Position numbers and translations under genes: made by a program. Positions 17,878 to 42,121 of a stretch of 64,000 nucleotides of DNA are shown piece after piece (position 1 is the first letter of the stretch; each line of letters starts with the position of its first letter). A model generated the notes under the pieces. The model ran no database searches. It saw only the letters and a list, made by a program, of their open reading frames with translations, and was not told where the DNA came from. Source of the stretch: Aerosticca soli. GTDB taxonomy: Bacteria; Pseudomonadota; Gammaproteobacteria; Xanthomonadales; Rhodanobacteraceae. The DNA lies in the NCBI RefSeq assembly GCF_003967035.1, contig NZ_AP018560.1:1635001-1699000 (forward strand). Direction: 5' to 3'.

Positions 17878-18552
17878 ATGCGCATTCTCATCGTCGAGGA
17901 CGACCCCGCGATTGCCGCTGCCATCGGCGGCGCGCTCGAGCACAGCGGCCATGCGGTCGATCGCATCGACGACGGCAGCCTGGCCGACCACGCCCTCAAG
18001 GACGGCAACTATGACCTGGCGATACTGGACCTGGGCCTCCCGGGGCTGGACGGACGCGAGGTGCTGGCCCGGCTGCGCCGCCGCGGAACGGGCTTGCCGG
18101 TGCTGGTCATCACCGCCCGCGAAGGGCTCAACGAGCGCGTCGGGGTGCTCGACATCGGCGCCGATGACTATCTGGTCAAGCCGTTCGCGCTGGCCGAATT
18201 CGAGGCCCGCGTGCGGGCGTTGCTGCGCCGGGCCGCGAGCGGCGGCGTGCCGGAGATCCGCATCGGCCGCCTGCGCCTCAACCTGCCCGGCCGCATGGCC
18301 TGGATCGAGGATCGCCCGCTCGCATTGACGCCGCGCGAATTCGGCCTGATCGAGGCGCTGGCCAGCCGTCCCAACCGGGTCACCAGTCGCGCACAGCTGA
18401 CCGAGGCGCTGTGCAACTGGGACGAGGAGATGACGCCCAACGGGCTGGACATCGCCATGCACCGGCTACGCCGCAAGCTCGCCGGCAGCGGCGCACGGGT
18501 GCGCACCGTGCGCGGCCTCGGCTACCTGCTCGAAGAAGGCGAGGATGAGTAG
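17878..18552 (+). CDS. OmpR/PhoB-family response regulator (TctD/QseB-like)
   Basis: 224 residues. The receiver domain has the acidic pair EDD near residue 8, phospho-acceptor Asp51 in ILDLGLPG and Lys101 in YLVKPF. The C-terminal winged helix (about 130-222) is of the Trans_reg_C type (LTPREFGLIEAL, RTVRGLGYLL). It overlaps the sensor kinase by eight bases and must form a pair with it. Target genes are unknown; neither tricarboxylate transporter genes nor porins lie nearby. Confidence 0.96.
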   Translation: MRILIVEDDPAIAAAIGGALEHSGHAVDRIDDGSLADHALKDGNYDLAILDLGLPGLDGREVLARLRRRGTGLPVLVITAREGLNERVGVLDIGADDYLVKPFALAEFEARVRALLRRAASGGVPEIRIGRLRLNLPGRMAWIEDRPLALTPREFGLIEALASRPNRVTSRAQLTEALCNWDEEMTPNGLDIAMHRLRRKLAGSGARVRTVRGLGYLLEEGEDE

Positions 18553-19939
18553 TCCCGCCCCCCTGCAACCGCCCAGCCTGCGCCGGCGGCTGCTGCTGTT
18601 CCTGCTGGTACCGATGCTGGTCTTTCTGCTGCTGGATGCGGTGATCACCTACGCCGGCGCGCTCGCCTACTCCAACCGGGTGCACGACAAGGATCTGGCC
18701 GATGAAGTTTTGACTGTTGCACAGATGATCCGTCGTTACGGCATCCAGAGCGAACTGTCTCCAGAGGTACGTTTTCTGATCGAATACGACCCGGATGGCC
18801 ATAATCATTTCAGTATCGTGAGTCGTAAACGCGGGCTACTCGATGGCCATGGTCGCTTTTTCAATATTCGACCATCGATTGGGCAAGCACCGTCTTTATA
18901 CGACGTACAAACCCCACACCATCTATTGCGCGTGGCCGCCTACAGCATGCCCGCGCCCGACGATCCGGGCGACGTCATCACCATCAGCATCGGCGAAACC
19001 CTGCAAAGCCGGCATCGCAATGCGCGCGACATCCTGCTGTTGAGCATTCCCATGCAGTCGCTGCTCATCGTATGCGTGCTGCTGCTGGTCTGGTTCGGCG
19101 TCGATCATGGCCTCAAGGTACTGAACCCGCTGGTTGAAAGGCTGCGCCGGCGCGAACACGAACTCGAGCCGATCACCGCCGAGGATGTGCCGATCGAGAT
19201 CCTGCCGCTCACCCGCACCATCGACCTCTTGTTCGCACGCCTCAAGCGCGCCATGCAGGCCCAGGAGCGTTTCCTGGCCGATGCCGCCCATCAGCTGCGC
19301 ACGCCGCTGGCCGGTTTCAGGCTGCATGCCGAACGCGCCCTGGCCAATCCGGCTGACACCAAGGACGCCCTGCACCACATCCTGCGGCTCACCGAGCGCA
19401 CCACGCGCATCGCCAACCAGCTGCTGGCGATCTCGCGCGCGCAGAGTCGCCTGGCCAACGGCAGCGAACTGCCGCTGCTCGATCTGGCCGCGCAGGTGCC
19501 TGGCATGGTGGCGCTGCGCGTACCCGAGGCCCTACATGCGGGCCTTGACTTAGGTTACCAGGGGCCGGATAAGCCGCTGCACATCCAGGGCCATGCCGAC
19601 GCCCTGCAGGAACTCCTGGACAACCTGATCGACAACGCCATGCGCTATGCCGGCCCTGGGCGAAGCGCCACGGTGCGCCTGGGGCCATGCCCCGACGGCG
19701 GCGCGGAGCTGGTGGTGGAGGATGATGGCCCGGGCGTACCCGAAGCATTGATGCCCAGGCTCGGCGAGCGGTTTTTCAGGGTGCCCGGACACGAAGGCCC
19801 AGGCACGGGGCTTGGCCTTGCGATCGTGCAGCAGATCGCCCAGTTGCATGGCGCCCAGGTCACTTTCGGCCGCAGCGAGGCGGGTGGATTCAAGGTCACC
19901 GTCCGTTTCCCGCCCCCGGCTGCGGCCACCTCGCCTTGA
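18545..19939 (+). CDS. Sensor histidine kinase (TctE/QseC-like)
   Basis: 464 residues. Membrane helices near 14-40 and 162-185 bracket a periplasmic sensor domain of about 120 residues of the 2CSK_N type. The H-box (FLADAAHQLRTPL, His249) follows a short linker, and the HATPase has the N box in LLDNLIDNAMRYA, G1 DDGPGVP and G2 GTGLGLAI. Codons for residues about 52-125 are distinctly poorer in G+C (about half G+C at 18721-18900 by hand count) than the flanking kinase domains, suggesting the sensor domain was exchanged or evolves separately. The signal is unknown. Confidence 0.95.
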   Translation: MSSPAPLQPPSLRRRLLLFLLVPMLVFLLLDAVITYAGALAYSNRVHDKDLADEVLTVAQMIRRYGIQSELSPEVRFLIEYDPDGHNHFSIVSRKRGLLDGHGRFFNIRPSIGQAPSLYDVQTPHHLLRVAAYSMPAPDDPGDVITISIGETLQSRHRNARDILLLSIPMQSLLIVCVLLLVWFGVDHGLKVLNPLVERLRRREHELEPITAEDVPIEILPLTRTIDLLFARLKRAMQAQERFLADAAHQLRTPLAGFRLHAERALANPADTKDALHHILRLTERTTRIANQLLAISRAQSRLANGSELPLLDLAAQVPGMVALRVPEALHAGLDLGYQGPDKPLHIQGHADALQELLDNLIDNAMRYAGPGRSATVRLGPCPDGGAELVVEDDGPGVPEALMPRLGERFFRVPGHEGPGTGLGLAIVQQIAQLHGAQVTFGRSEAGGFKVTVRFPPPAAATSP

Positions 19940-20005
19940 AAGCCGTCTGAAAAAGTCGCCTGCGACATTGCCCCTCATGTATTTGATCAACGGATCGATT
20001 CCATC

Positions 20006-20842
20006 GTGATACGCAAAGCCGATTTCTGGTTGGAAGGCAGCGGCCCGCACGGCGTTCTGCTGATCCACGGCCTCACCGGCACGCCCAACGAAATGCGCAT
20101 CCTGGCCAAGGCACTCCACCGGCGCGGCTACACCGTGCACGGCGTGCAACTGGCCGGCCACGGCGGCGACATGGAAGACCTGATCGCCACCGGCTGGCGC
20201 GATTGGTACGCCAGCGTCGACGCAGCCGCCGAGCGCATGGCGTCGCGGGTCGACAAGCTGTTCGTCGGCGGGCTTTCCATGGGCGCGTTGCTTGCGCTCA
20301 AGCTCGCGTCCGAATGGCGGGAACGCATCGCCGGCGTGGGCGTCTACGGCGTCACTTTCCGCTACGACGGCTGGAGCATGCCGCGCACCAGCCGCCTCGC
20401 CTGTCTTCTGCCGATGTTCAAGCGGCTCGGTATCGGCCGCTCACGCGTATTCATGGAACAGCCGCCCTATGGCATCCGTGACGAACAGCTGCGCGGACGG
20501 ATCGTGGCCGCCATGCAGGGCGAGGACAGCACCGCCGCCGGCCTGCCGGGTAATCCGTGGCACGCATTGGCCGAGATGTACAAGCTCTCCACGCACGTGC
20601 GCCGTCGCCTGCATCGGGTGATCTCGCCTTGCCTGGTCGCGCACGCCCGCGAGGATGACGTCGCCAGCCTGCGCAATGCCGAACGGGTGCTGCGCGGCGT
20701 GCGCGCGCCGACCGATTTCCTGGTGCTGGACGACAGCTATCACATGATCACCATCGACCGGCAGCGGAGTCTGCTGGCCGAACGCTCGGCAGCGTTTTTC
20801 GATGCCATCAGCGGTGAAACACGCGCGCCGTTGGCCGCCTGA
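20006..20842 (+). CDS. Alpha/beta hydrolase, Est30-like carboxylesterase
   Basis: 278 residues with a GTG start. The catalytic set is visible: nucleophile Ser in GLSMG, Asp in AREDD and His in DSYHMITID; the oxyanion segment is HGLTGTPNEM. This matches the carboxylesterase/monoacylglycerol lipase group typified by Bacillus Est30. It is cytoplasmic, with no signal peptide. It lies nine bases before the small DMT pair and could be the first gene of that cluster or an unrelated neighbour; its G+C is like the bulk chromosome, unlike the genes after it. Confidence 0.88.
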   Translation: MIRKADFWLEGSGPHGVLLIHGLTGTPNEMRILAKALHRRGYTVHGVQLAGHGGDMEDLIATGWRDWYASVDAAAERMASRVDKLFVGGLSMGALLALKLASEWRERIAGVGVYGVTFRYDGWSMPRTSRLACLLPMFKRLGIGRSRVFMEQPPYGIRDEQLRGRIVAAMQGEDSTAAGLPGNPWHALAEMYKLSTHVRRRLHRVISPCLVAHAREDDVASLRNAERVLRGVRAPTDFLVLDDSYHMITIDRQRSLLAERSAAFFDAISGETRAPLAA

Positions 20843-20850
20843 AGGTCTCA

Positions 20851-21210
20851 ATGCAGCCGCTCGCGCTCGGACTATGGATGGCCAATGCCACCCTCGATAC
20901 TTGTGGTCAACTCGCCTTCAAGGCGGCCGCCAATACACCGGCCCAAAGTACCGGTATCGCGCACTGGCAATACATGCTGAAACGCCCATGGCTGTGGCTC
21001 GGCATCACTTGCTATATAGCTGAGTTCTTTGCCTGGATCGCTTTTCTGTCCTTACTACCGTTATCCGAGGGAGTACTGCTCGGCTCGATCAATATCGTAA
21101 TCGTCATGCTGGCTGGGCGTTTATTTTTCGGTGAACGACTCACACCCATGCGCGTGACCGGCATTTTATTGGTGAGCTTGGGCGTACTGCTCGTGGGCAG
21201 TTCGGCATGA
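20851..21210 (+). CDS. Small four-helix DMT-superfamily membrane protein (ArnE/SMR-like)
   Basis: 119 residues with four hydrophobic segments. It starts with the LDTCGQLAFKAA motif, comparable with the GQLxxK region of ArnE/ArnF and EmrE-like proteins, and ends VTGILLVSLGVLLVGSS. Half-size DMT proteins work as dimers, exporting small cations or polyamines or flipping lipid-linked sugars. It overlaps the next, homologous gene by four bases, suggesting a heterodimer such as ArnE-ArnF or MdtI-MdtJ. G+C is lower than in the flanking chromosome. The transported compound is unknown. Confidence 0.85.
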   Translation: MQPLALGLWMANATLDTCGQLAFKAAANTPAQSTGIAHWQYMLKRPWLWLGITCYIAEFFAWIAFLSLLPLSEGVLLGSINIVIVMLAGRLFFGERLTPMRVTGILLVSLGVLLVGSSA

Positions 21211-21593
21211 AACGTCATATACCAGGTTTTTTGTTACTGATGGCGTTCGATACCTTGGCGCAGTTCTCCTTCAAGCTGGCCGGCGATCACGCATTGCCAG
21301 CGACCTTGGATAGAGCCTGGCTCCAACGCGTACTCACGTCGCCATGGGTGGCTGGCGCGATCATTGGCTATCTGGGGGCCTTTACAACCTGGATGAATCT
21401 ACTCAAGCAGGCACCAATAGGTCCGGCATTTGCTGCCTCTCACCTGGAAGTGGTGAGCGTCGCCCTGCTATCGGTATGGTTTTTTCATGAACCACTGACC
21501 ATGCGAGTGGTTCTCGGCGCGGCCGCCATCGTTGCAGGCATCATCTGCCTGGCATTATCAGAGTCCGCACCCGACGTGGCGATCACCCCCTGA
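21207..21593 (+). CDS. Second small DMT-superfamily membrane protein (ArnF-like partner)
   Basis: 128 residues with four hydrophobic segments and the same N-terminal signature (AFDTLAQFSFKLA) as its neighbour, then PIGPAFAASHLEVVSVALLSVWFFHEPLT, the EamA-like end. Length and pairing match ArnF. Overlap with the first subunit and the immediate TGA-ATG junction with the DegT gene show a single operon. As a pair the two would form an inner-membrane exporter or flippase. Confidence 0.85.
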   Translation: MKRHIPGFLLLMAFDTLAQFSFKLAGDHALPATLDRAWLQRVLTSPWVAGAIIGYLGAFTTWMNLLKQAPIGPAFAASHLEVVSVALLSVWFFHEPLTMRVVLGAAAIVAGIICLALSESAPDVAITP

Positions 21594-22808
21594 ATGTTGT
21601 TACATCGGGAAATTCCGCCCACTGCTGGGCTGCCTCTTCATTGGCAGGATCTCTTATCATTTGACACAAGGCCATCGCTCGCCGATTACCTGGCCAAGCA
21701 ACTCGACATTCCAGATCCCTTATTGACCTGTTCGGGCACCGCTGCATTCATGGTGGCGTTGCGCGCGTTGCATCGCAAAGCCCCCTCGCGCCATGTGGTC
21801 GTCATCCCCGCCTACACCTGTCCGCTGGTACCCATTGCAGTGCGCCAGCTCGGCTTAAGCTTGCGTTTGTGTGACCTTCTACCGGGACATTTCGACCTCG
21901 ATCCAAAAGCCCTCGCCGCAGCCTGCCGAGAAGATACCCTGGCCATAGTACCGACGCATCTGGCGGGCCTTGTCGCCGATGTAACAACGGCGCTTTCCAT
22001 AGCCCGTAATGCTGGCGCCTTCGTGATTGAGGATGCTGCTCAAGCCCTCGGCGCAGAGCAAGACGGACGAAGCGTCGGCCTACAGGGTGATGCGGGCTTT
22101 TTTAGCCTAGCTGCAGGCAAGGGCCTGTCGACCTATGAAGGCGGCATCCTGATTGCGCGCGACAATGCAATACGCAAAGCCATGGCATACGAAGCAACTG
22201 AAATGCTGCCATGCAATTGGCGCATGGAACTACTGCGTTGCATGCAATTGCTTGGCCTAGCCATCTGTTACCGTCCATCGTTGCTCACTCTGGCCTACGG
22301 TTTGCCCCTTCGACGTTCATTACGCCGTGGCGATCCAATCGCCGCCATTGGCGATCATTTCCCCATGCAGGTGCCGCTGCATAGCGTCAGCCGCTGGCGA
22401 CAGGCAGTTGGGGCGCGCGCGGCTGCGCGTTGGCCGGATTTTCTTGCCCATCGCCGTCTTCTCGCCCAGCAACGTATCGAGCGACTACGGCGCATCCACG
22501 GACTGCAGGTCTTCGATGAGCGCCCAGGCAGCACGGCAAGTTGGCCCTACTTCTTACTGCTGATGCCGGATGAGGCCAAACGTGACGCAGCGCTCGGACA
22601 ATTATGGCAATCGGGCTTGGGCGTCAGTCGAATCTTTGTTCATGCATTACCTGATTACGACTATCTCGCTGACTGCATCCCACGCACAGCCACGCCAAGA
22701 GCACGGGATTTCGCCGCACGGACGCTAACCATTAGCAACAGCCCATGGTTGGAAGATGCCGATTTCGAGCACATCTGCGCCACGCTCGATCGTGTACTGC
22801 GCACCTGA
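21594..22808 (+). CDS. DegT/DnrJ/EryC1-type PLP-dependent aminotransferase homologue
   Basis: 404 residues, fold type I. Expected features are present: SGTAAFMVAL for the phosphate end, PAYTCPLVPIAV, IEDAAQALGAE (Asp binding the pyridine N) and the Schiff-base Lys in FSLAAGKGLSTYEG. Sugar aminotransferases of this group make amino sugars from keto-sugar nucleotides (ArnB, for example). No nucleotide-sugar dehydratase is nearby, and the C-terminal third is divergent, so the substrate may not be a sugar nucleotide. It begins directly after the DMT pair stop, giving tight co-expression. Confidence 0.85.
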   Translation: MLLHREIPPTAGLPLHWQDLLSFDTRPSLADYLAKQLDIPDPLLTCSGTAAFMVALRALHRKAPSRHVVVIPAYTCPLVPIAVRQLGLSLRLCDLLPGHFDLDPKALAAACREDTLAIVPTHLAGLVADVTTALSIARNAGAFVIEDAAQALGAEQDGRSVGLQGDAGFFSLAAGKGLSTYEGGILIARDNAIRKAMAYEATEMLPCNWRMELLRCMQLLGLAICYRPSLLTLAYGLPLRRSLRRGDPIAAIGDHFPMQVPLHSVSRWRQAVGARAAARWPDFLAHRRLLAQQRIERLRRIHGLQVFDERPGSTASWPYFLLLMPDEAKRDAALGQLWQSGLGVSRIFVHALPDYDYLADCIPRTATPRARDFAARTLTISNSPWLEDADFEHICATLDRVLRT

Positions 22809-22816
22809 CCCGTGTT

Positions 22817-23698
22817 TCAGGTCGAAGCATTCGTGTAAAGATCGGCCATCGCATCGAGTAGTTCGAGGTCGAGTTCGAACTGCCGCGCCTGCCAAGCTGA
22901 TAATGCGCATTCGTCGACTGGTGGCTGTGCATCGATCGCTGCCAGTATGCGCTTCCAGCGTCGCCGATAGCGGTATGAAGAGACTTCACCGGTGATATCG
23001 CTACCGATCAGGCCGGCATCCAAAGCGCCGATCAACGAACGCGCATGCTTGGGCTGAAGAACACCCTGATCCCAGTTGGTATGTGCCACATCTATTGAGA
23101 AAACATCCTTGTCGATGGAAAGATAGGCCGGCCGCGCAAAACGGCGTTGGTGATCGATGAAAGCATCGGTCAGGGTATCGGCGTCGGCAAAAGTCCGAAA
23201 AGCCGATGCCATTCCCAATCGATGCGCCCAACGCACGTCGACACCGATACACCAATAGGTCAAGCGCCCCTGGCATAATGGGGCAAGATAATTTTCCCAT
23301 GCATGACGCAAGCCGACGTCTTGCGAGCAAATACCGACCACGTGCACATGAGCAATCTGCGCCAAGGCTGTCACGGAGCGCACCCAGGATCCGCAATGCA
23401 CACCGAAAGGGAAGCGCATGTTATCAGGGTGATTATCCAGCACCACCACTTGAAACGGCTGGGTTGATGCCTTCCGCGCAATCAACGGCAAACTGAGATG
23501 ATGAAAATCACCGCTACCGAGAAACACGGTGCCATATTGCAGCGGAAGTACATCATCGAGTACCCGGGCAAATTTCCGCAACGTCGCTGCTGAGCAACAG
23601 AATCGCAAGGATTCCTGCCAGTGTTCCAAGGGCACCACCAGCCGGTGCGGCAATGGACCGACCGAATGATCGAGGTCGAGCACCACAGGCTGGTTCAT
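22817..23698 (-). CDS. Ureohydrolase (arginase/agmatinase)-fold enzyme
   Basis: 293 residues. I see the manganese-site motifs of the arginase superfamily: GSGDFHH (for GGDHS), LDNHPDN (for DAHxD) and SIDKDVFSID (for SxDxDxxD). All six usual ligands therefore seem present although the surroundings diverge strongly from arginase, agmatinase and formiminoglutamase. A hydrolase for a guanidino, formimino or amide bond is inferred. It is convergent with the DegT gene (eight-base gap), and its start overlaps the stop of the GNAT/FemAB-like gene, so the two are coupled. Confidence 0.75.
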   Translation of the reverse strand: MNQPVVLDLDHSVGPLPHRLVVPLEHWQESLRFCCSAATLRKFARVLDDVLPLQYGTVFLGSGDFHHLSLPLIARKASTQPFQVVVLDNHPDNMRFPFGVHCGSWVRSVTALAQIAHVHVVGICSQDVGLRHAWENYLAPLCQGRLTYWCIGVDVRWAHRLGMASAFRTFADADTLTDAFIDHQRRFARPAYLSIDKDVFSIDVAHTNWDQGVLQPKHARSLIGALDAGLIGSDITGEVSSYRYRRRWKRILAAIDAQPPVDECALSAWQARQFELDLELLDAMADLYTNAST

Positions 23699-24816
23699 GC
23701 CGGCTGGACAGCAACCGACTCGCCAGCGAAACTCGGCGCCAGACGACGCAACAGACCACGCAACAGCGAACTACGTACATGCACCAAGTGTCGTGTCATG
23801 GTGAAACTCGCACCGAGATCACGTTTGACTGTTGCGTCGGTCCACCCGGCCACATAATGACGCAAGCCCCGAGACAAGGCGTAATCTATATTGCGTATCC
23901 AGCTCACGAAATAAAGATTATTTTCGCGTGCCGCAGGATAGGCAAGTCCGATATATTTGTCGATCAGTTTGCCGCTGTATTCATAGCACAGATTCCAGCC
24001 TATCATCTCACCATGATGACGGTAGACGAAAACGATTCCACGATTATTGGCATCCTGCAGCAGCGCGCGAAAGAAATCCATGCTCAATAAATCGAAATGC
24101 ACCTGGCTCTGTGCATACACGTTGCGATAAAGCGCATAAAAATCCGCCAGAACCTCCGGCTTGTGGAAACGATCATCTCCGGTCGGTATGATGTCCACCT
24201 CGAGACGGTCTATCGCCCGCAACTTGCGGCGCAAATCCTTGCGGCGCGAAGCGGAAAGCCTGGCGAGATAAGCCTGGACATCATTGAAGTCCAGCGACAG
24301 GTAAGCCAATGCTTGGCCTTCCACGTCGATCCAGCCCTGCCTTTTACATGTGGCGACAAAGGTCTGCGCAAAAGCATTGTCGGAAGCATCCAGCAACGGT
24401 GAATCGCACGGTAAATCTTTGACGATCAACAACGGACATTCATTGCCATATGTCTGAAGCAATTCATCTACCAGCTTTATCGGGTCCGCCAAAAAAGGCA
24501 GTGGCGCGTATTCACTCACTGTGCTACCAATAAAACGGGTACGCCAGCGCAACAATCCCGACCAACGGCGATAAAACGGCCAGTGCATCACCTTTCGTCG
24601 CAATGCGTCATCCGCAGTAGTCAGCAAATCGAACGCCATAATAAAGCCAGGCATCCCCTGCACAGCGCGTTCTGCAAAAAAACCTTCAGGTGGATAGGCG
24701 ATAAAATGCTCGATCAGCGATGCAGGTTCTAATTGCCCCCTGTATGTGGCCTCAACGCGAGAAATTTCCGAAGGCAAGAAAGGTCCGACGCTCTCCGGAA
24801 AGCGCTTTGCAAGCAT
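23695..24816 (-). CDS. FemAB/GNAT-like acyltransferase or aminoacyl-transferase
   Basis: 373 residues. The C-terminal half has the Acetyltransf_6/FemAB-like pattern: SASRRKDLRRKLR, a long helix, YRNVYAQSQVHFD, VYRHHGEMIGWNLCYE, KYIGLAYPAARENNLYF and HYVAGWTDATVKRDLGA. Such enzymes transfer acyl or aminoacyl groups to small molecules or envelope components. I use the ATG at 24816; a TTG two codons upstream overlaps the aminotransferase stop. No signal peptide. G+C is around 40% over long stretches, far below the aminotransferase immediately upstream. Confidence 0.75.
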   Translation of the reverse strand: MLAKRFPESVGPFLPSEISRVEATYRGQLEPASLIEHFIAYPPEGFFAERAVQGMPGFIMAFDLLTTADDALRRKVMHWPFYRRWSGLLRWRTRFIGSTVSEYAPLPFLADPIKLVDELLQTYGNECPLLIVKDLPCDSPLLDASDNAFAQTFVATCKRQGWIDVEGQALAYLSLDFNDVQAYLARLSASRRKDLRRKLRAIDRLEVDIIPTGDDRFHKPEVLADFYALYRNVYAQSQVHFDLLSMDFFRALLQDANNRGIVFVYRHHGEMIGWNLCYEYSGKLIDKYIGLAYPAARENNLYFVSWIRNIDYALSRGLRHYVAGWTDATVKRDLGASFTMTRHLVHVRSSLLRGLLRRLAPSFAGESVAVQPA

Positions 24817-24818
24817 GA

Positions 24819-26222
24819 TCAACCCTGCTTGGCTCGGGTCAGCAGCTGGTCGAGCAACGCGATGGCGAGGTCGATTTCCTCGTGGGTGATGTCGAGCGAT
24901 GGCGCCAGCGTGATCACATTCTTGTACCAGCCACCGACGTCGAGCACGAGGCCGATCGGCTTGCCGTCATGACGCAAATCGCCGGCCAGGCCGATGTCGA
25001 CCATGCGGTCGAGCAGCGCCTTGTTCGGAGTGAAGCCGTCCTCGGTGCAGATCTCGGCGCGCAGCGCGAGCCCGAGGCCGTCGACGTCGCCGATCTCCTT
25101 GTGCCGGCGCTGCAGATCCTTGAGCCCGGCCAGAAAGTGCGCGCCCTTCTCCGGCACGGTCTGCTCGTAGTTCATCTCCTCGCCGAGCCGCATCACCTCC
25201 AGGCCCACGGCGGTGCCGAGCGGATTGGAGTTGAAGGTCGAATGGGTCGAGCCGGGCGGGAACACCTGCGGATTGATCAGTTCCTCGCGCGCCCACAGGC
25301 CCGAGAGCGGGTTGAGTCCGTTGGTCAGCGCCTTGCCGAACACCAGCACGTCCGGCGTCACGCCGAAATGCTCGATCGACCACAGCTTGCCGGTGCGCCA
25401 GAAACCCATCTGGATTTCATCGACCACCAGCAGGATGCCGTACTGGTCCATCACCTTCTTCAACTCGCGGAAGAAGTTCGGCGGCGGCACCACGTAGCCG
25501 CCGGTGCCCTGGATCGGCTCGACGTAGAACGCGGCGTATTCGGCCTGGCTCACCTTCGGATCCCACACGCCGTTGTATTCGGTCTCGAACAATCGCGCGA
25601 ACTGGCGCACGCAATGCTCGGAGTATTCCTCCGGCGTCATACCCTTGGGGCGGCGGAACGGATACGGGAACGGGATGAACATCGCGCGCTCGCCGAAGTG
25701 ACCGAAGCGGCGGCGATAGCGGTAACTCGAGGTGATCGACGAGGCACCCAGCGTGCGGCCGTGATAGCCGCCCTCGAAGGCGAACATCAGGCTCTTGCCG
25801 TTCTTGGCATTGCGCACCAGCTTGAGCGAATCCTCGATCGCCTGCGCGCCGCCGACGTTGAAGTGCACGCGACCCTTCAGGCCGAACTTGCGCTGCGCAT
25901 CGAGCGCGATGGTCTTGGCGAGCTGCACGCGGGTCGGATGCAGATACTGGCTGGCCACCTGCGGCAGGGTGTCGATCTGCCGCTTGAGCGCGGCATCCAG
26001 ACGCGGGTTGGCGTAGCCGAAGTTGCACGCCGAATACCACATCTGCAGGTCGAGGAAGGGCGTGCCGGCCGCGTCGAACATGTAGCTGCCTTCGCAGCGG
26101 CGGAAGATCTTCGGCGGCTCGACGTAGTGCACGGTGTCGCCGTAGGAGCTGTACAGCGCCTCGTCGGCGAGCAGCTGTTCGTCGGAAATCGCCTCGTCGG
26201 CGCGTTTGTCGAAAACGTTCAT
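24819..26222 (-). CDS. Class III PLP-dependent aminotransferase
   Basis: 467 residues. The class III fold-type I pattern is clear: phosphate-loop VGGAQAIEDSLKL, EGGYHGRTLGA, VEPIQGTGGYVVPP, the Asp of VVDEIQMGFWRTG, the Schiff-base Lys in VFGKALTNG and PPGSTHSTFNSNPL. These enzymes move an amino group from omega-amino acids, diamines or amino ketones. Annotators often call this group aspartate aminotransferase family, which says little about the substrate. The open frame continues upstream through the phosphatase gene region, but the ATG at 26222 begins the conserved protein. The next gene upstream is the MtnX-like phosphatase (59 bases). Confidence 0.9.
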   Translation of the reverse strand: MNVFDKRADEAISDEQLLADEALYSSYGDTVHYVEPPKIFRRCEGSYMFDAAGTPFLDLQMWYSACNFGYANPRLDAALKRQIDTLPQVASQYLHPTRVQLAKTIALDAQRKFGLKGRVHFNVGGAQAIEDSLKLVRNAKNGKSLMFAFEGGYHGRTLGASSITSSYRYRRRFGHFGERAMFIPFPYPFRRPKGMTPEEYSEHCVRQFARLFETEYNGVWDPKVSQAEYAAFYVEPIQGTGGYVVPPPNFFRELKKVMDQYGILLVVDEIQMGFWRTGKLWSIEHFGVTPDVLVFGKALTNGLNPLSGLWAREELINPQVFPPGSTHSTFNSNPLGTAVGLEVMRLGEEMNYEQTVPEKGAHFLAGLKDLQRRHKEIGDVDGLGLALRAEICTEDGFTPNKALLDRMVDIGLAGDLRHDGKPIGLVLDVGGWYKNVITLAPSLDITHEEIDLAIALLDQLLTRAKQG

Positions 26223-26281
26223 GGCAGGCAAAGAATCCCGTGGGGAGATAGGAAAAGAGCGGCCGCGTGGCAAAGGCCGCA

Positions 26282-26968
26282 TCACGGCACGACGGCGGTC
26301 GCGTCCTCGAGCGTCAGGCGGCCCTCGAGCAGCGCAGGCAGCAACGCCAGCGCATCCTCGAAGCCGGTGATCGGCCGGTACGGAATGCCGCTCGCGCGGC
26401 AATGCTCGATCAGGCGGTGCTTGGCGAACACGAAATCCACCCGCTCGGCGGCGCAGAAGTCCGAGGCGCCATCGCCGATCAGCAAGGTGCGCGCACCACC
26501 GGCACGGGCCTGCTCGACGCAGGCGCACTTGCAGGTGCCGCTGCGGCAACCGGCGGCCTGGAACGGCGAGCTCAACTGCCAGCGCTGGGGCGCCGTGGCC
26601 GGTCGCAGGTGATTGGCGGCGAGCGGCAGGTCGTCCAGGTCATAGCGCGCGAGGATGCGCTCGATGGCGTAATCCAAGCCGTCGCTGACGATGCGCAGCG
26701 GCAAGCCGAGTTCGCGTGCCTTGGCTGCGAAGGCCGGAAAGGCGTGGTCGATCCACAGGCCCGAGAGATGCCGGTCGAGTTCTTCCCGGCTCATGTCGAG
26801 CAGTGCGACCTGGCCGGTCATGCATTCGCGCGAGCCGATGCGGCCGGCGCGCCAGTCGCGTTCGAGTTCACGCCAGCCAGGCCGGCCATAGCGATCGAGC
26901 AGCGAGTCGATGACGTCCTCGACGGCGATGGTGCCGTCGAAATCACACAGGATGGTCCAGGAATTCAC
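26282..26968 (-). CDS. HAD-IB phosphatase, MtnX-like
   Basis: 228 residues. HAD motif I is CDFDGTIAVEDV (nucleophile Asp), motif II is around RIVSDGLDYAI, and motif III/IV is LLIGDGASDFCAA. A Cys-rich insertion, CRSGTCKCACVEQ, is typical of the MtnX/SerB-like IB group. MtnX acts in methionine salvage (enolase-phosphatase step), but no other mtn genes are here, and pairing with the class III aminotransferase suggests a different phosphorylated substrate whose dephosphorylated form is aminated, or the reverse. Confidence 0.85.
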   Translation of the reverse strand: MNSWTILCDFDGTIAVEDVIDSLLDRYGRPGWRELERDWRAGRIGSRECMTGQVALLDMSREELDRHLSGLWIDHAFPAFAAKARELGLPLRIVSDGLDYAIERILARYDLDDLPLAANHLRPATAPQRWQLSSPFQAAGCRSGTCKCACVEQARAGGARTLLIGDGASDFCAAERVDFVFAKHRLIEHCRASGIPYRPITGFEDALALLPALLEGRLTLEDATAVVP

Positions 26969-27086: not shown

Positions 27087-27872
27087 ATGACCGATTTGAC
27101 GGATTTGCGGCGCCTCTTCGCGGGGCTCGTGCTTGCCGGCGTGCCGTTCGCGGCCACATGGGCTGCCGATGACGCGGCACCGAGTTACGCCCTTGGCGCC
27201 GGCATGGAACGCATGCCGGCCTGGATCGGCGCGGATCACCACCGCAACCAGGCGGTGCCTTATTTCGACATCGAGTTGCCGGGCTGGGGCGAGCTGTCCA
27301 GCACCGATGGCCTCATGCTCGACCTGATCCACGACACGCCATGGCACGGCGGGCTCTACGGCAACTATCAGTGGGGCCGCACCAGCCATGCGCTCGGGCC
27401 GCGCCTGAAAGGCATCGTCGATCCGCTCGGCCCGCGCATCCACGGCGGCGGCTATCTGGAATATCACTTCACCGAGCACACGAGCCTCGGCGGCCATGTG
27501 AGCCACGACACCCAGGGCGCCGGCGCCTATGCGGCGCTGTACGCCGATGTCGACCTACCCTCCATCGGCTACTGGCAACACTCGCTGGAAGCACAGTGGC
27601 AAGGCATGAACGGCGCCGCGATGCGTCGCTTCTTCGGCCTGCGCCCGGCACAGGCGGCCGCGCTCGGCGTGCGCGCCTGGCAACCCGGCGCGGGTGGCGA
27701 GCAAGTGTCGCTGGAATACGATGCCTTCATGCCCACCAGCCGCCACACCGGCTTCGCACTCGCGCTCGATTACGGCAGGCTGATCGGCCCGGCCGGCAAC
27801 AGCCCGTTGGTGCAGCGCTTTGGCGCCCGCACCCAGGTCACCACCTCGATCGCCTTTCTCTATCACTTCTGA
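27087..27872 (+). CDS. MipA/OmpV family outer-membrane protein
   Basis: 261 residues with a signal peptide (about 1-26, ending TWAA). The mature part shows the MipA/OmpV signature YALGAGMERMPAWIGADHHRNQAVPYFDIEL, alternating beta-strands, and an aromatic C-terminus (FLYHF) typical of outer-membrane barrels. MipA is a scaffold for lytic transglycosylase MltA in E. coli; other members are porin-like. Divergent from the phosphatase gene with a 118-bp gap where a weak promoter could fit (TACGCT near 27050). Confidence 0.87.
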   Translation: MTDLTDLRRLFAGLVLAGVPFAATWAADDAAPSYALGAGMERMPAWIGADHHRNQAVPYFDIELPGWGELSSTDGLMLDLIHDTPWHGGLYGNYQWGRTSHALGPRLKGIVDPLGPRIHGGGYLEYHFTEHTSLGGHVSHDTQGAGAYAALYADVDLPSIGYWQHSLEAQWQGMNGAAMRRFFGLRPAQAAALGVRAWQPGAGGEQVSLEYDAFMPTSRHTGFALALDYGRLIGPAGNSPLVQRFGARTQVTTSIAFLYHF

Positions 27873-39930: not shown

Positions 39931-40023
39931 GGCGACCCGGATAATCAGCCTTTCGCCGGACAGGGCTACAAAATCTTTTTTGCTGACGGCACAGTCATCT
40001 CAGGCAAGCTGGATGCCCAGGCG
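39931..40023 (+). pseudogene. Fragment of a VgrG/T6SS effector-like C-terminus
   Basis: A short in-frame piece, DPDNQPFAGQGYKIFF followed by ADGTVISGKLDAQ, resembles the repeat-like carboxy-terminal segments (Y-x-I-x-x-x-D-G-x-x-x-x-G-x-x-D) of VgrG and PAAR-linked effectors. It has no start and quickly loses protein character, so it is a remnant. Its position beside tssA supports a former T6SS cargo gene. Identification is by motif resemblance only. Confidence 0.4.
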
Positions 40024-40143
40024 TCGCTGCCCTCGCCGGCGGCGAAGGGCGGGGCGGCGCGGCCGTTGTAGCCATCGATACGCTTGCGGACCCGCCCTGG
40101 GCTCCCTGGCAGGACATTGTCACCGCCGCCTCGATGCCGTTGA

Positions 40144-40566
40144 TGTGGGCGTAGATATAAAAACCAAATTTCAATAGACATTACAATATTACTACCAATA
40201 ATAGAGAGGGCAGAATATTTTCAGCAATCTGTCGTAATAATTGACGCCACGAGTGGCGTTGTTTATCCAATGCCAATAGATTTTTATTCTGGATACGCCA
40301 ATAAAAGCGAAGGAGCTGCTGATTTTGGAAAAATCAATTACAATCCAAACGAAGACAAAATATGTATTGAAGGATCAATATTTGTATATCGAAGCGAAAA
40401 GGATGGAATTTTTTGCTTTAATTTTGACGGGAATACTTTTCAGGACACCACACCACCTATATGGACATTGATTGATATCCGTCATGCCACTTACAATCTT
40501 GAATACGTTGCTTTTGCTGACATCAATATACTCGCACGAGTTACCGGGATTGAAGACGTGCGTTGA
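40144..40566 (+). pseudogene. 5'-truncated low-G+C ORF (possible periplasmic immunity-type protein)
   Basis: Open frame of 140 codons with an ATG only at 40270. Protein-like sequence already begins before it (ERAEYFQQSVVIIDATSGVVYP), which indicates that the true N-terminus has been lost; if the ATG is used the product is 98 residues. The VVIIDATSGVVYPMP / ICIEGSIFVYRSEKDG pattern recalls small periplasmic or lipoprotein families found near secretion cargo. G+C is only about a quarter to a third in places. No convincing ribosome site. Confidence 0.45.
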
Positions 40567-41434
40567 TCATGCATGCGAAATCCAATTGGACAATAATGGA
40601 TATCTAATAAATGAAATCGATGCAAAAATATTCAAGCATCCCACGGAACAGACCATGTTTAATTCGTACACCCTCTTCAAAAGCAAAAATAAATTTATCC
40701 TCGAATCAGAAAACACAACTTCGTCAAGGAATTGGTCTGTGATTGTATTCAATTACTCCAATAATAAAATATTTGCCGAACGCTACATTTCATTATCTAG
40801 AAACATATCTTCACCGAATGAAAATATAAACCCAAGCGTCATCCATTGGATTGGCAAAGATTGCAGAGGCAATCTGGCACTCGACGATTCAAAAGATCCA
40901 TTTGATGCCGCCCTCGCACTTTGTGGAGATGAGACCAAAGAAGACGAAGTGACCATACCTAAGACAAACTCCATAAAAAGTGCTTCCGCGAAGGGATTAG
41001 TGGTTACTATTCCTGTTTATGGTGGATCATCCAGTCAGGCAGCCATCTATTTCTTCCCTCAAAGCCAAGAACCCAACGCCGCATCTCTGCTTTGCATGTC
41101 TAATTGCGGGCTAGACGATTCGCAATTAACGCTCGGCGGTGTCATCGGCCACTCATTGTGGATTGATATGCAGCTACAAGAAAATGGAACAAATAAATAT
41201 GCTGGAACATATTTTTATACCAACAAAAAAATAAATATACCGGTCGAAGGTTATATGAAAAATAATTATTTTAAAATTAATGAGTTTGAGTCTGCTTTTG
41301 CTAAAACCTCAACAAGTGATAATCCATCGGCCACCTTTAATCTTATGCGCGAAGGCGATTCGTTTATAGGCAACTGGACATCCAGATCGAGCAAGAAAAC
41401 GTTTGACGTATTATTGGCACGACGAATATATTGA
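40484..41434 (+). CDS. Secreted protein of unknown function in an A+T-rich patch
   Basis: 316 residues from the ATG at 40484, which gives a signal peptide (MPLTILNTLLLLTSIYS, cleavage near SHE); an ATG four codons upstream is possible. Eight cysteines or fewer, among them CVDHAC and CMSNC, suggest disulfides. The C-terminal part (YAGTYFYTNKKINIPVEG, FNLMREGDSFIGNW, VLLAR) follows a G-x-Y-x-Y / I-x-x-x-G / G-x-W beta pattern seen in periplasmic inhibitor-like or immunity-like proteins. It overlaps the preceding ORF by 83 bases. G+C falls to about 20-40% per line against about 65-70% around it, so recent acquisition is likely. Function not assigned. Confidence 0.65.
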   Translation: MPLTILNTLLLLTSIYSHELPGLKTCVDHACEIQLDNNGYLINEIDAKIFKHPTEQTMFNSYTLFKSKNKFILESENTTSSRNWSVIVFNYSNNKIFAERYISLSRNISSPNENINPSVIHWIGKDCRGNLALDDSKDPFDAALALCGDETKEDEVTIPKTNSIKSASAKGLVVTIPVYGGSSSQAAIYFFPQSQEPNAASLLCMSNCGLDDSQLTLGGVIGHSLWIDMQLQENGTNKYAGTYFYTNKKINIPVEGYMKNNYFKINEFESAFAKTSTSDNPSATFNLMREGDSFIGNWTSRSSKKTFDVLLARRIY

Positions 41435-41566
41435 CTCATCGGCACCGCCCCGATCGCCGGCGGGCTCACCCACACCGCCAGCCGCGCCCGTCCCGAAGGC
41501 AAAAGACAAATAAAATACCATCTCGAGCGTTTGAGCGCGCGAAGGAATGATTTTACGCTCCATGGA

Positions 41567-42121
41567 TTAGCTCAGCAGTCGCTGAAGCCAGGCAACATAG
41601 CGGTCGACGAAGCCTTGCACGAACTTGCGCGTGTCTTCGTTGCCGATATTTCCCTCTGCATCGAGCAATCCTTCGCTGAACTTGATGAACACCTCCGGCT
41701 GGGTCAGCAGCGGAACATCGAGATAGGCGAGGACGTTGCGCAGATGCTGTTGCGCGAGCGCGCTGCCGGTGGCGCCGATCGAAGCACCAATCACTGCTCC
41801 AGGTTTGCCGGCGAAGGAGTTGGTGCCCCATGGCCGCGAGCCGATGTCGAGCGCGTTCTTGAGCACGCCGGGCATCGAGCGGTTGTATTCGGGCGTGACG
41901 AACAACAGCGCGTCGGCGGCTTCGATCTGCTGCTTGAGGCGTTTGCACGCAGCCGGATAATCGGCATCGAAGTCCTGGTTGTAGAGCGGCAGGTCATCGA
42001 TGCGCACGTGCTCGAACACCAGGTCGGCCGGCGCCAGCCGCTCGACCGCGCGCGCCAGCCTGCGATTGATCGATTCCTTGCGCAGACTGCCGACCAGCAC
42101 CGCCACCTTGTATCCGCGCAT
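41567..42121 (-). CDS. NADPH-dependent FMN reductase family protein
   Basis: 184 residues, flavodoxin-like fold. FMN loop VGSLRKESINRRLA, TPEYNRSMPGVLKNALD (the flavin-contacting PEYN motif) and GKPGAVIGASIGATGS are standard for ChrR/YieF/AzoR-like quinone and chromate reductases. Soluble, cytoplasmic. It is the last gene of a leftward metabolic group and lies 65 bp after the E1 gene. Confidence 0.92.
   Translation of the reverse strand: MRGYKVAVLVGSLRKESINRRLARAVERLAPADLVFEHVRIDDLPLYNQDFDADYPAACKRLKQQIEAADALLFVTPEYNRSMPGVLKNALDIGSRPWGTNSFAGKPGAVIGASIGATGSALAQQHLRNVLAYLDVPLLTQPEVFIKFSEGLLDAEGNIGNEDTRKFVQGFVDRYVAWLQRLLS

Follow-up and report, generated by a model that had tools for sequence, protein, structure and literature searches.

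The window analysed here is a 64,000-nucleotide stretch of the Aerosticca soli genome (contig NZ_AP018560.1, positions 1,635,001 to 1,699,000). Five of its genes, at 20851–24816, are of low G+C content, and an initial annotation treated them as a unit. Comparative analysis reveals that they are the middle of a larger, strongly conserved cluster of 8 to 10 genes (17878–26968), which many bacteria of soil and water carry, and not a self-contained island; the 20851–24816 boundaries, which were set by composition, cut this larger functional unit in two places. We propose, with moderate confidence, that the whole is a conserved, two-component-linked cluster for the biosynthesis and membrane translocation of a nitrogen-containing, probably amphipathic and perhaps fatty conjugate.

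Open reading frame (ORF) calls and Pfam matches bore out the five intact genes at 20851–24816 and the families first assigned to them. Pfam and NCBIfam profiles were run on the eight products encoded at 20006–26968. On the forward strand, genes for two half-size EamA/DMT membrane proteins, DMT1 [20851–21210, 119 amino acids (aa); PF00892, 35 bits] and DMT2 (21207–21593, 128 aa; PF00892, 36.5 bits), both above cutoff, precede that for a pyridoxal phosphate (PLP) enzyme of the DegT/DnrJ/EryC1 fold, DegT (21594–22808, 404 aa; PF01041, 141.8 bits). The reverse strand encodes a ureohydrolase-fold enzyme, ARG (22817–23698, 293 aa; PF00491, 22.5 bits against a cutoff of 22), and a FemAB-like tandem-GNAT transferase, FEM (23695–24816, ATG at 24816, 373 aa), which matches PF04339 (FemAB_like) and PF13480 (Acetyltransf_6). 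On either side are an alpha/beta hydrolase on the forward strand, ABH [20006–20842, 278 aa; PF12146 (Hydrolase_4), 70.7 bits], and two reverse-strand genes, encoding a class III PLP aminotransferase, AT3 (24819–26222, 467 aa; PF00202 over its full length, 246.9 bits), and an MtnX-like HAD-IB phosphatase, HAD (26282–26968, 228 aa; TIGR01489, 86.2 bits against a cutoff of 81.55). ORF calls also place a sensor histidine kinase (18545–19939, forward strand, 464 aa) upstream of ABH, overlapped by a response regulator (17878–18552, forward strand, 224 aa) that is likely to be the first gene of the forward unit. This unit, from the response regulator and kinase through ABH, DMT1 and DMT2 to DegT, spans 17878–22808 with intergenic gaps of no more than 66 bp, and the reverse unit, HAD-AT3-FEM-ARG, runs from 26968 to 22817. 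DMT1 and DMT2 overlap by 4 bp, as do ARG and FEM, DMT2 and DegT are separated by 0 bp, and the convergent stop codons of DegT and ARG lie 8 bp apart, in agreement with the two convergent, tightly coupled units originally described.

The extent of the cluster is indicated by the genes that accompany ARG in other genomes. ARG is present in 55 of 119 related genomes, with a strong match in 50. FEM is found in all 50 of the latter, DegT in 49 and AT3 in 44, and the corresponding counts in the 69 ARG-negative genomes are two, two and nine; Fisher values for co-occurrence with ARG, calculated ignoring relatedness, range from 1e-31 to 5e-17. AT3 accompanies ARG even where the two are unlinked: one genome (G021) keeps AT3 at 2.29 Mb and ARG at 4.82 Mb. 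In a set of 98 full-length loci, selected through ARG and with related species over-represented, FEM occurs in 98, DMT proteins in 86, ABH in 84, DegT in 78, AT3 in 70, HAD in 68, a ketosynthase in 64, and exporter parts and a histidine kinase in 46 each. FEM lies beside ARG in 89 of these loci, and HAD adjoins AT3 in most clusters. AT3, HAD and ABH belong to the unit and are among its most widely shared members, and a five-gene unit with AT3 and HAD outside it is therefore not upheld. The two-component system is often attached to the cluster; homologues of the response regulator adjoin it in Stenotrophomonas-type and many Rhodanobacteraceae loci.

More than 20 genera of the Rhodanobacteraceae and Xanthomonadaceae have the same families in a cluster. 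Far from never occurring together, these families thus behave as the co-inherited biosynthesis and translocation cassette that had been suggested. Among 398 genomes drawn from the phylum, 18 (16 strong) have ARG; these belong to the Rhodanobacteraceae, the Xanthomonadales and further families of gamma- and other proteobacteria. A scan of named genomes reported 514 encoding stretches, and the 80 loci listed are mostly from Rhodanobacter, Dyella, Frateuria, Luteibacter, Fulvimonas, Oleiagrimonas, Stenotrophomonas and Xanthomonas. The Stenotrophomonas cluster runs response regulator-histidine kinase-ABH-DMT1-DMT2-DegT-HAD-AT3-FEM-ARG, all on one strand and without a ketosynthase. The convergent arrangement is retained in Rhodanobacter, many of whose loci have a gene for a FabF-like ketosynthase lying between AT3 and FEM; Dyella, too, has the ketosynthase next to FEM, but its AT3 is located elsewhere. 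A plasmid copy in Xanthomonas sacchari is annotated with an acyl carrier protein (ACP), ketosynthase, HlyD, ABC ATPase and TolC, and one Rhodanobacter locus includes HlyD and MacB/FtsX-type parts.

Rearranged versions, often lacking DegT, occur in other Gammaproteobacteria, on plasmids of Agrobacterium, Roseomonas and Aureimonas and, in part, in Bartonella. The Agrobacterium fabrum plasmid carries HAD-AT3-ARG-EamA-ABH-GNAT-EamA-TolC-ABC-ABC-adaptor. Roseomonas and Aureimonas have similar sets in which a glutamate-semialdehyde-aminomutase-like enzyme (L158, 7350–8693; L159, 7532–8869) takes the place of AT3, possibly as a non-orthologous replacement. Plasmids of bat Bartonella (L156, 7407–10879) encode AT3-GNAT-ARG, with ARG about 48% identical. 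This Bartonella set adjoins an MBOAT acyltransferase gene, and a further locus (L021) likewise has an MBOAT gene beside ARG. In some alphaproteobacterial or related metagenome-assembled genomes, AT3-HAD-ABH, in some cases with ACP and ketosynthase, is found with no ARG or FEM nearby, and AT3-HAD-ABH looks like the core of the cluster. At two loci (L189, 813–6317; L190, 8194–12818) an ACP-sized ORF, ketosynthase, HAD, AT3 and ABH lie together, again with no ARG or FEM nearby; such a set is perhaps the ancestral core. The window genome holds a minimal version, since it has no close cluster-type ketosynthase (best matches 43% and 38%) and no match to a MacB-type exporter permease at E 1e-10 in a single search, which leaves absence of the latter unproven.

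A PDB sequence search with FEM gave no convincing match and a structure model was therefore made [predicted local distance difference test (pLDDT) score 88]. In the model the tandem-GNAT fold covers nearly the whole chain. The nearest structures are the streptothricin peptide synthases Sbb17/Sba18 (Z 17.4–17.7), MprF (17.2), FemA (17.1) and FemX (17.0); single GNATs, other tandem GNATs and N-myristoyltransferases score 12–14. This closeness to aminoacyl-tRNA-dependent transferases supports the fold and suggests that the donor may be an aminoacyl group. FEM shares this predicted fold with the four systems at Z 16–17.7; it differs from FemX, MprF and Sba18/Sbb17 in its low identity to them (8–18%) and in being a separate soluble enzyme whose partners are a ureohydrolase and enzymes that use PLP. 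MprF also couples transfer with flipping, which here could be performed by the DMT pair. The acylation envisaged in the initial annotation is only one option, since the modelled FEM resembles aminoacyl-tRNA-dependent transferases more closely than it does acetyltransferases or myristoyltransferases.

The ARG model (pLDDT 89) is predicted to adopt the ureohydrolase alpha/beta/alpha fold, with Z scores of 18–19.6 to proclavaminate amidino hydrolase, arginases, agmatinases and formimidoylglutamase. The profile and structure comparison suggested for these products thus points to a tandem-GNAT fold for FEM and a ureohydrolase fold for ARG. The putative Mn ligands of ARG, assigned by motif alignment and not from metal geometry, are H66/67, D88, H90, D92, D196 and D198, which, with H101, are invariant; position E238 is Glu or Asp. 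The ligand set (His, DxHxD, DxD) is invariant in 34 homologues and in nine more diverse ones. ARG thus has the same predicted fold and Mn ligands as proclavaminate amidino hydrolase, arginase, agmatinase and N-hydroxyarginine hydrolase, but is only 10–20% identical to these and has GSGDFHH where they have GGDHS. Together, ARG and FEM make up a new enzyme couple that lends itself to direct testing.

Catalytic residues are also intact in the other enzymes. AT3 is unusually conserved, with 74–88% identity from this family to other families and classes; that some 75% is kept from one class to another indicates that it is under strong selection. Its T240 is invariant in 76 orthologues and the Thr of the NVIT motif is conserved. 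Both AT3 positions aligned with the E211/R398 switch pair of Escherichia coli GabT are Thr; because AT3 lacks this Glu/Arg pair, a mark of the gamma-aminobutyrate/ornithine/acetylornithine type that serves gamma-aminobutyrate-type enzymes for carboxylate substrates, its substrate is more likely to be a ketone or an amine other than an amino acid. In DegT, the PLP residues Lys176 and Asp147 are invariant in an alignment of 25 orthologues. Ser91, Asp217-218 and His246 of ABH are conserved in 86 homologues, and HAD conserves the DxDGT motif and has invariant catalytic residues. DMT1 and DMT2 provide two adjacent half-size EamA domains, as in paired transporters.

Cluster membership, the families and the intact catalytic residues are established, and models predict how FEM and ARG fold; from these we infer the later chemistry. 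AT3 and HAD would convert a metabolite into a small amine through PLP-dependent transamination and removal of phosphate. FEM would then couple this amine, or a lipid that bears it, to an aminoacyl (or fatty acyl) group, and ARG, co-translated with FEM, would act on the conjugate or on its precursor, stripping it of an amidine or guanidine group with the release of urea or ammonia. In the Xanthomonadales-type version, DegT may perform a second PLP-dependent step, perhaps also in forming the amine, and ABH may trim or transfer an ester or thioester. The product could be flipped across the inner membrane by DMT1/DMT2 as an ArnE/F-like heterodimer and, in the richer relatives, then secreted by a MacB/HlyD/TolC-type tripartite exporter, with the whole pathway presumably under the adjacent two-component system. 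A lipid moiety is suggested in at least those versions whose clusters carry ACP and ketosynthase.

Several points weigh against this scheme. Each chemical step is deduced from a fold or family. ARG and FEM are missing from some AT3-HAD-ABH clusters and so may be tailoring steps, and the aminomutase-like enzyme in place of AT3 in Roseomonas and Aureimonas complicates the first step. A common fold leaves more than one donor possible for FEM, as N-myristoyltransferases have it too (Z about 12.7). The main alternative within the scheme concerns this donor, which structure suggests to be aminoacyl-tRNA and the ACP and ketosynthase neighbours in relatives suggest to be acyl-ACP.

Taken further, the latter option gives an N-acyl amine (lipoamide) pathway, which is possible, though we would not expect it: AT3 and HAD would make an amino alcohol, such as serinol from dihydroxyacetone phosphate, FEM would N-acylate it from acyl-ACP, and ARG and DegT would tailor the headgroup. 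ACP and a FabF-like ketosynthase lie inside the cluster in many relatives, and the serinol route has a precedent in RtxA, an aminotransferase domain of which has been described in serinol formation from dihydroxyacetone phosphate (PMC3222319). The FEM fold is also shared, more weakly, by N-myristoyltransferase. No evidence links AT3 to dihydroxyacetone phosphate, however; FEM is structurally nearer the aminoacyl-tRNA-dependent transferases, the ketosynthase is missing from the Stenotrophomonas-type operon, and the window genome has no close counterpart of it. Acylation of an amine on a lipid by a cytoplasmic transferase is known for bacterial ceramide synthase (PMC11087976), the amine in that case being a long-chain base. 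Caulobacter ceramide synthesis (Spt, bCerS, CerR) bears a conceptual likeness in this amine acylation, and ACP is nearby in some relatives of the present cluster. Profile scans of the eight cluster products identified no alpha-oxoamine synthase of the serine palmitoyltransferase type, and without such an enzyme in the cluster its membership of a bacterial sphingolipid pathway was rejected.

A specific form of the preferred aminoacyl scheme is attractive but improbable. In this form, FEM would load arginyl from arginyl-tRNA onto the AT3/HAD amine or an amino-lipid, ARG would convert it to ornithine with release of urea, and the DMT pair would flip the ornithinylated lipid. Ornithine has no tRNA of its own. 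If the proposal were true, two enzymes would, in a tRNA-dependent manner conserved across the Proteobacteria, put ornithine on a lipid or small molecule.

The composition of the five central genes raises the question of a lineage-specific, horizontally acquired island sitting by chance in a region of normal G+C, which we consider quite improbable. G+C contents are 55.0% (DMT1), 56.3% (DMT2), 58.3% (DegT), 55.4% (ARG) and 51.9% (FEM), and not the 40–50% first estimated, with 56–63% at third codon positions (GC3). ABH, AT3 and HAD have 67, 65 and 69% (GC3 84–90%), so that AT3 and HAD are of normal G+C, as had been noted; adjoining genes overall have 64–71% (GC3 77–90%). The reported contrast with the surroundings is thus real, a dip of about 10–13 points with edges close to gene boundaries, and this favours an island, as does the terminal branch of the window's block, which is the longest in the block tree. 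The dip does not mark the cassette, however. In about 100 relatives the block homologues match their own loci in G+C (mean differences −0.014 to +0.036), and the family shares the gene order. The block tree places the window genome inside the Rhodanobacteraceae, next to the Frateuria/Dyella group, albeit with a support of 0.44 for the exact node, and the block/flank distance ratio of the window falls in the range of other taxa. Because homologues elsewhere do not deviate and the tree keeps the block in the Rhodanobacteraceae, the low G+C is confined to this genome; it arose locally within the lineage, through drift or allelic replacement (a lower-G+C relative being a possible donor), and is no marker of the unit. 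Horizontal acquisition as the main explanation was rejected on these two grounds, the composition of homologues and the block tree. A second, stronger low-G+C stretch in the window, at 40001–42000 (42% and 52% per kb), contains an uncharacterized ORF of 320 aa at 40472–41434. In contrast to the cassette, this stretch may have been inserted recently.

An Arn-like modification of lipid A, in which an amino group is added and the product flipped on undecaprenyl phosphate, is very improbable. An operon that combines a DegT-fold PLP enzyme with a pair of half-size DMT proteins is also a feature of the Arn pathway, and the DMT pair and DegT are distantly related to ArnE/F and ArnB. The best NCBIfam matches of the DMT pair are indeed ArnF/ArnE, but at 28–31 bits against cutoffs of 92 and 99, and DegT scores 68 bits against a cutoff of 631 for ArnB. 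The dehydratase, formyltransferase, glycosyltransferase and ArnT are all missing from the cluster: none of ArnA, ArnC, ArnD and ArnT is among the eight products of 20006–26968, the rest of the genome not having been searched. Membership of the pathway was rejected on model scores and gene content, and the mismatch to Arn-type modification pointed out initially is confirmed.

A cluster for a ribosomally synthesized and post-translationally modified peptide (RiPP), in which a peptide arginase and a GNAT acyltransferase would act on a precursor as in the selidamides, is hardly credible and was rejected, as ARG has no PF12640 match (PF00491 alone at E up to 1) and gaps of at most 66 bp between cluster genes leave no room for a precursor gene, no conserved short ORF being seen near the cluster. 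There is precedent for an arginase with fatty-acylated ornithine, and for a ureohydrolase acting on a conjugate beside a GNAT-type transferase (PMC12703449; PMC10028609). In contrast to the OspR and selidamide pathways, the cluster has no precursor peptide, and ARG is of the PF00491 and not the PF12640 type; the catalytic His and Glu, which have no counterparts in the peptide arginase OspR (PMC10028609), do have them in ARG.

The initial view that the genes match no known pathway still holds, as no paper naming the cluster was found in the open-licence literature. Neither the combination of genes nor Stenotrophomonas aminolipids nor DUF482/COG3146 led to a published account of the cluster, a weak negative confined to open-licence papers. 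A Stenotrophomonas maltophilia biofilm transcriptome that includes an EamA transporter and a GNAT was considered and yielded no link to this cluster. The components all come from known superfamilies; the open literature seems to contain no description of their combination or of the product. Most members of one bacterial family keep the cluster, as do Stenotrophomonas, Xanthomonas and plasmids of Alphaproteobacteria, which points to a common, uncharacterized product, and the intact catalytic residues and dedicated flippase, often with a two-component system and exporter, point the same way. The identity of the product could explain some unidentified lipids or secreted amines of these bacteria.

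Beyond the cluster, a gene at 27087–27872 is divergent to HAD. We take its product to be putatively MipA/OmpV-like, a label based on comparison of neighbours. Homologues lie near HAD in 24 of the 98 loci, and weak matches (25–28%) occur in gammaproteobacterial versions of the cluster.

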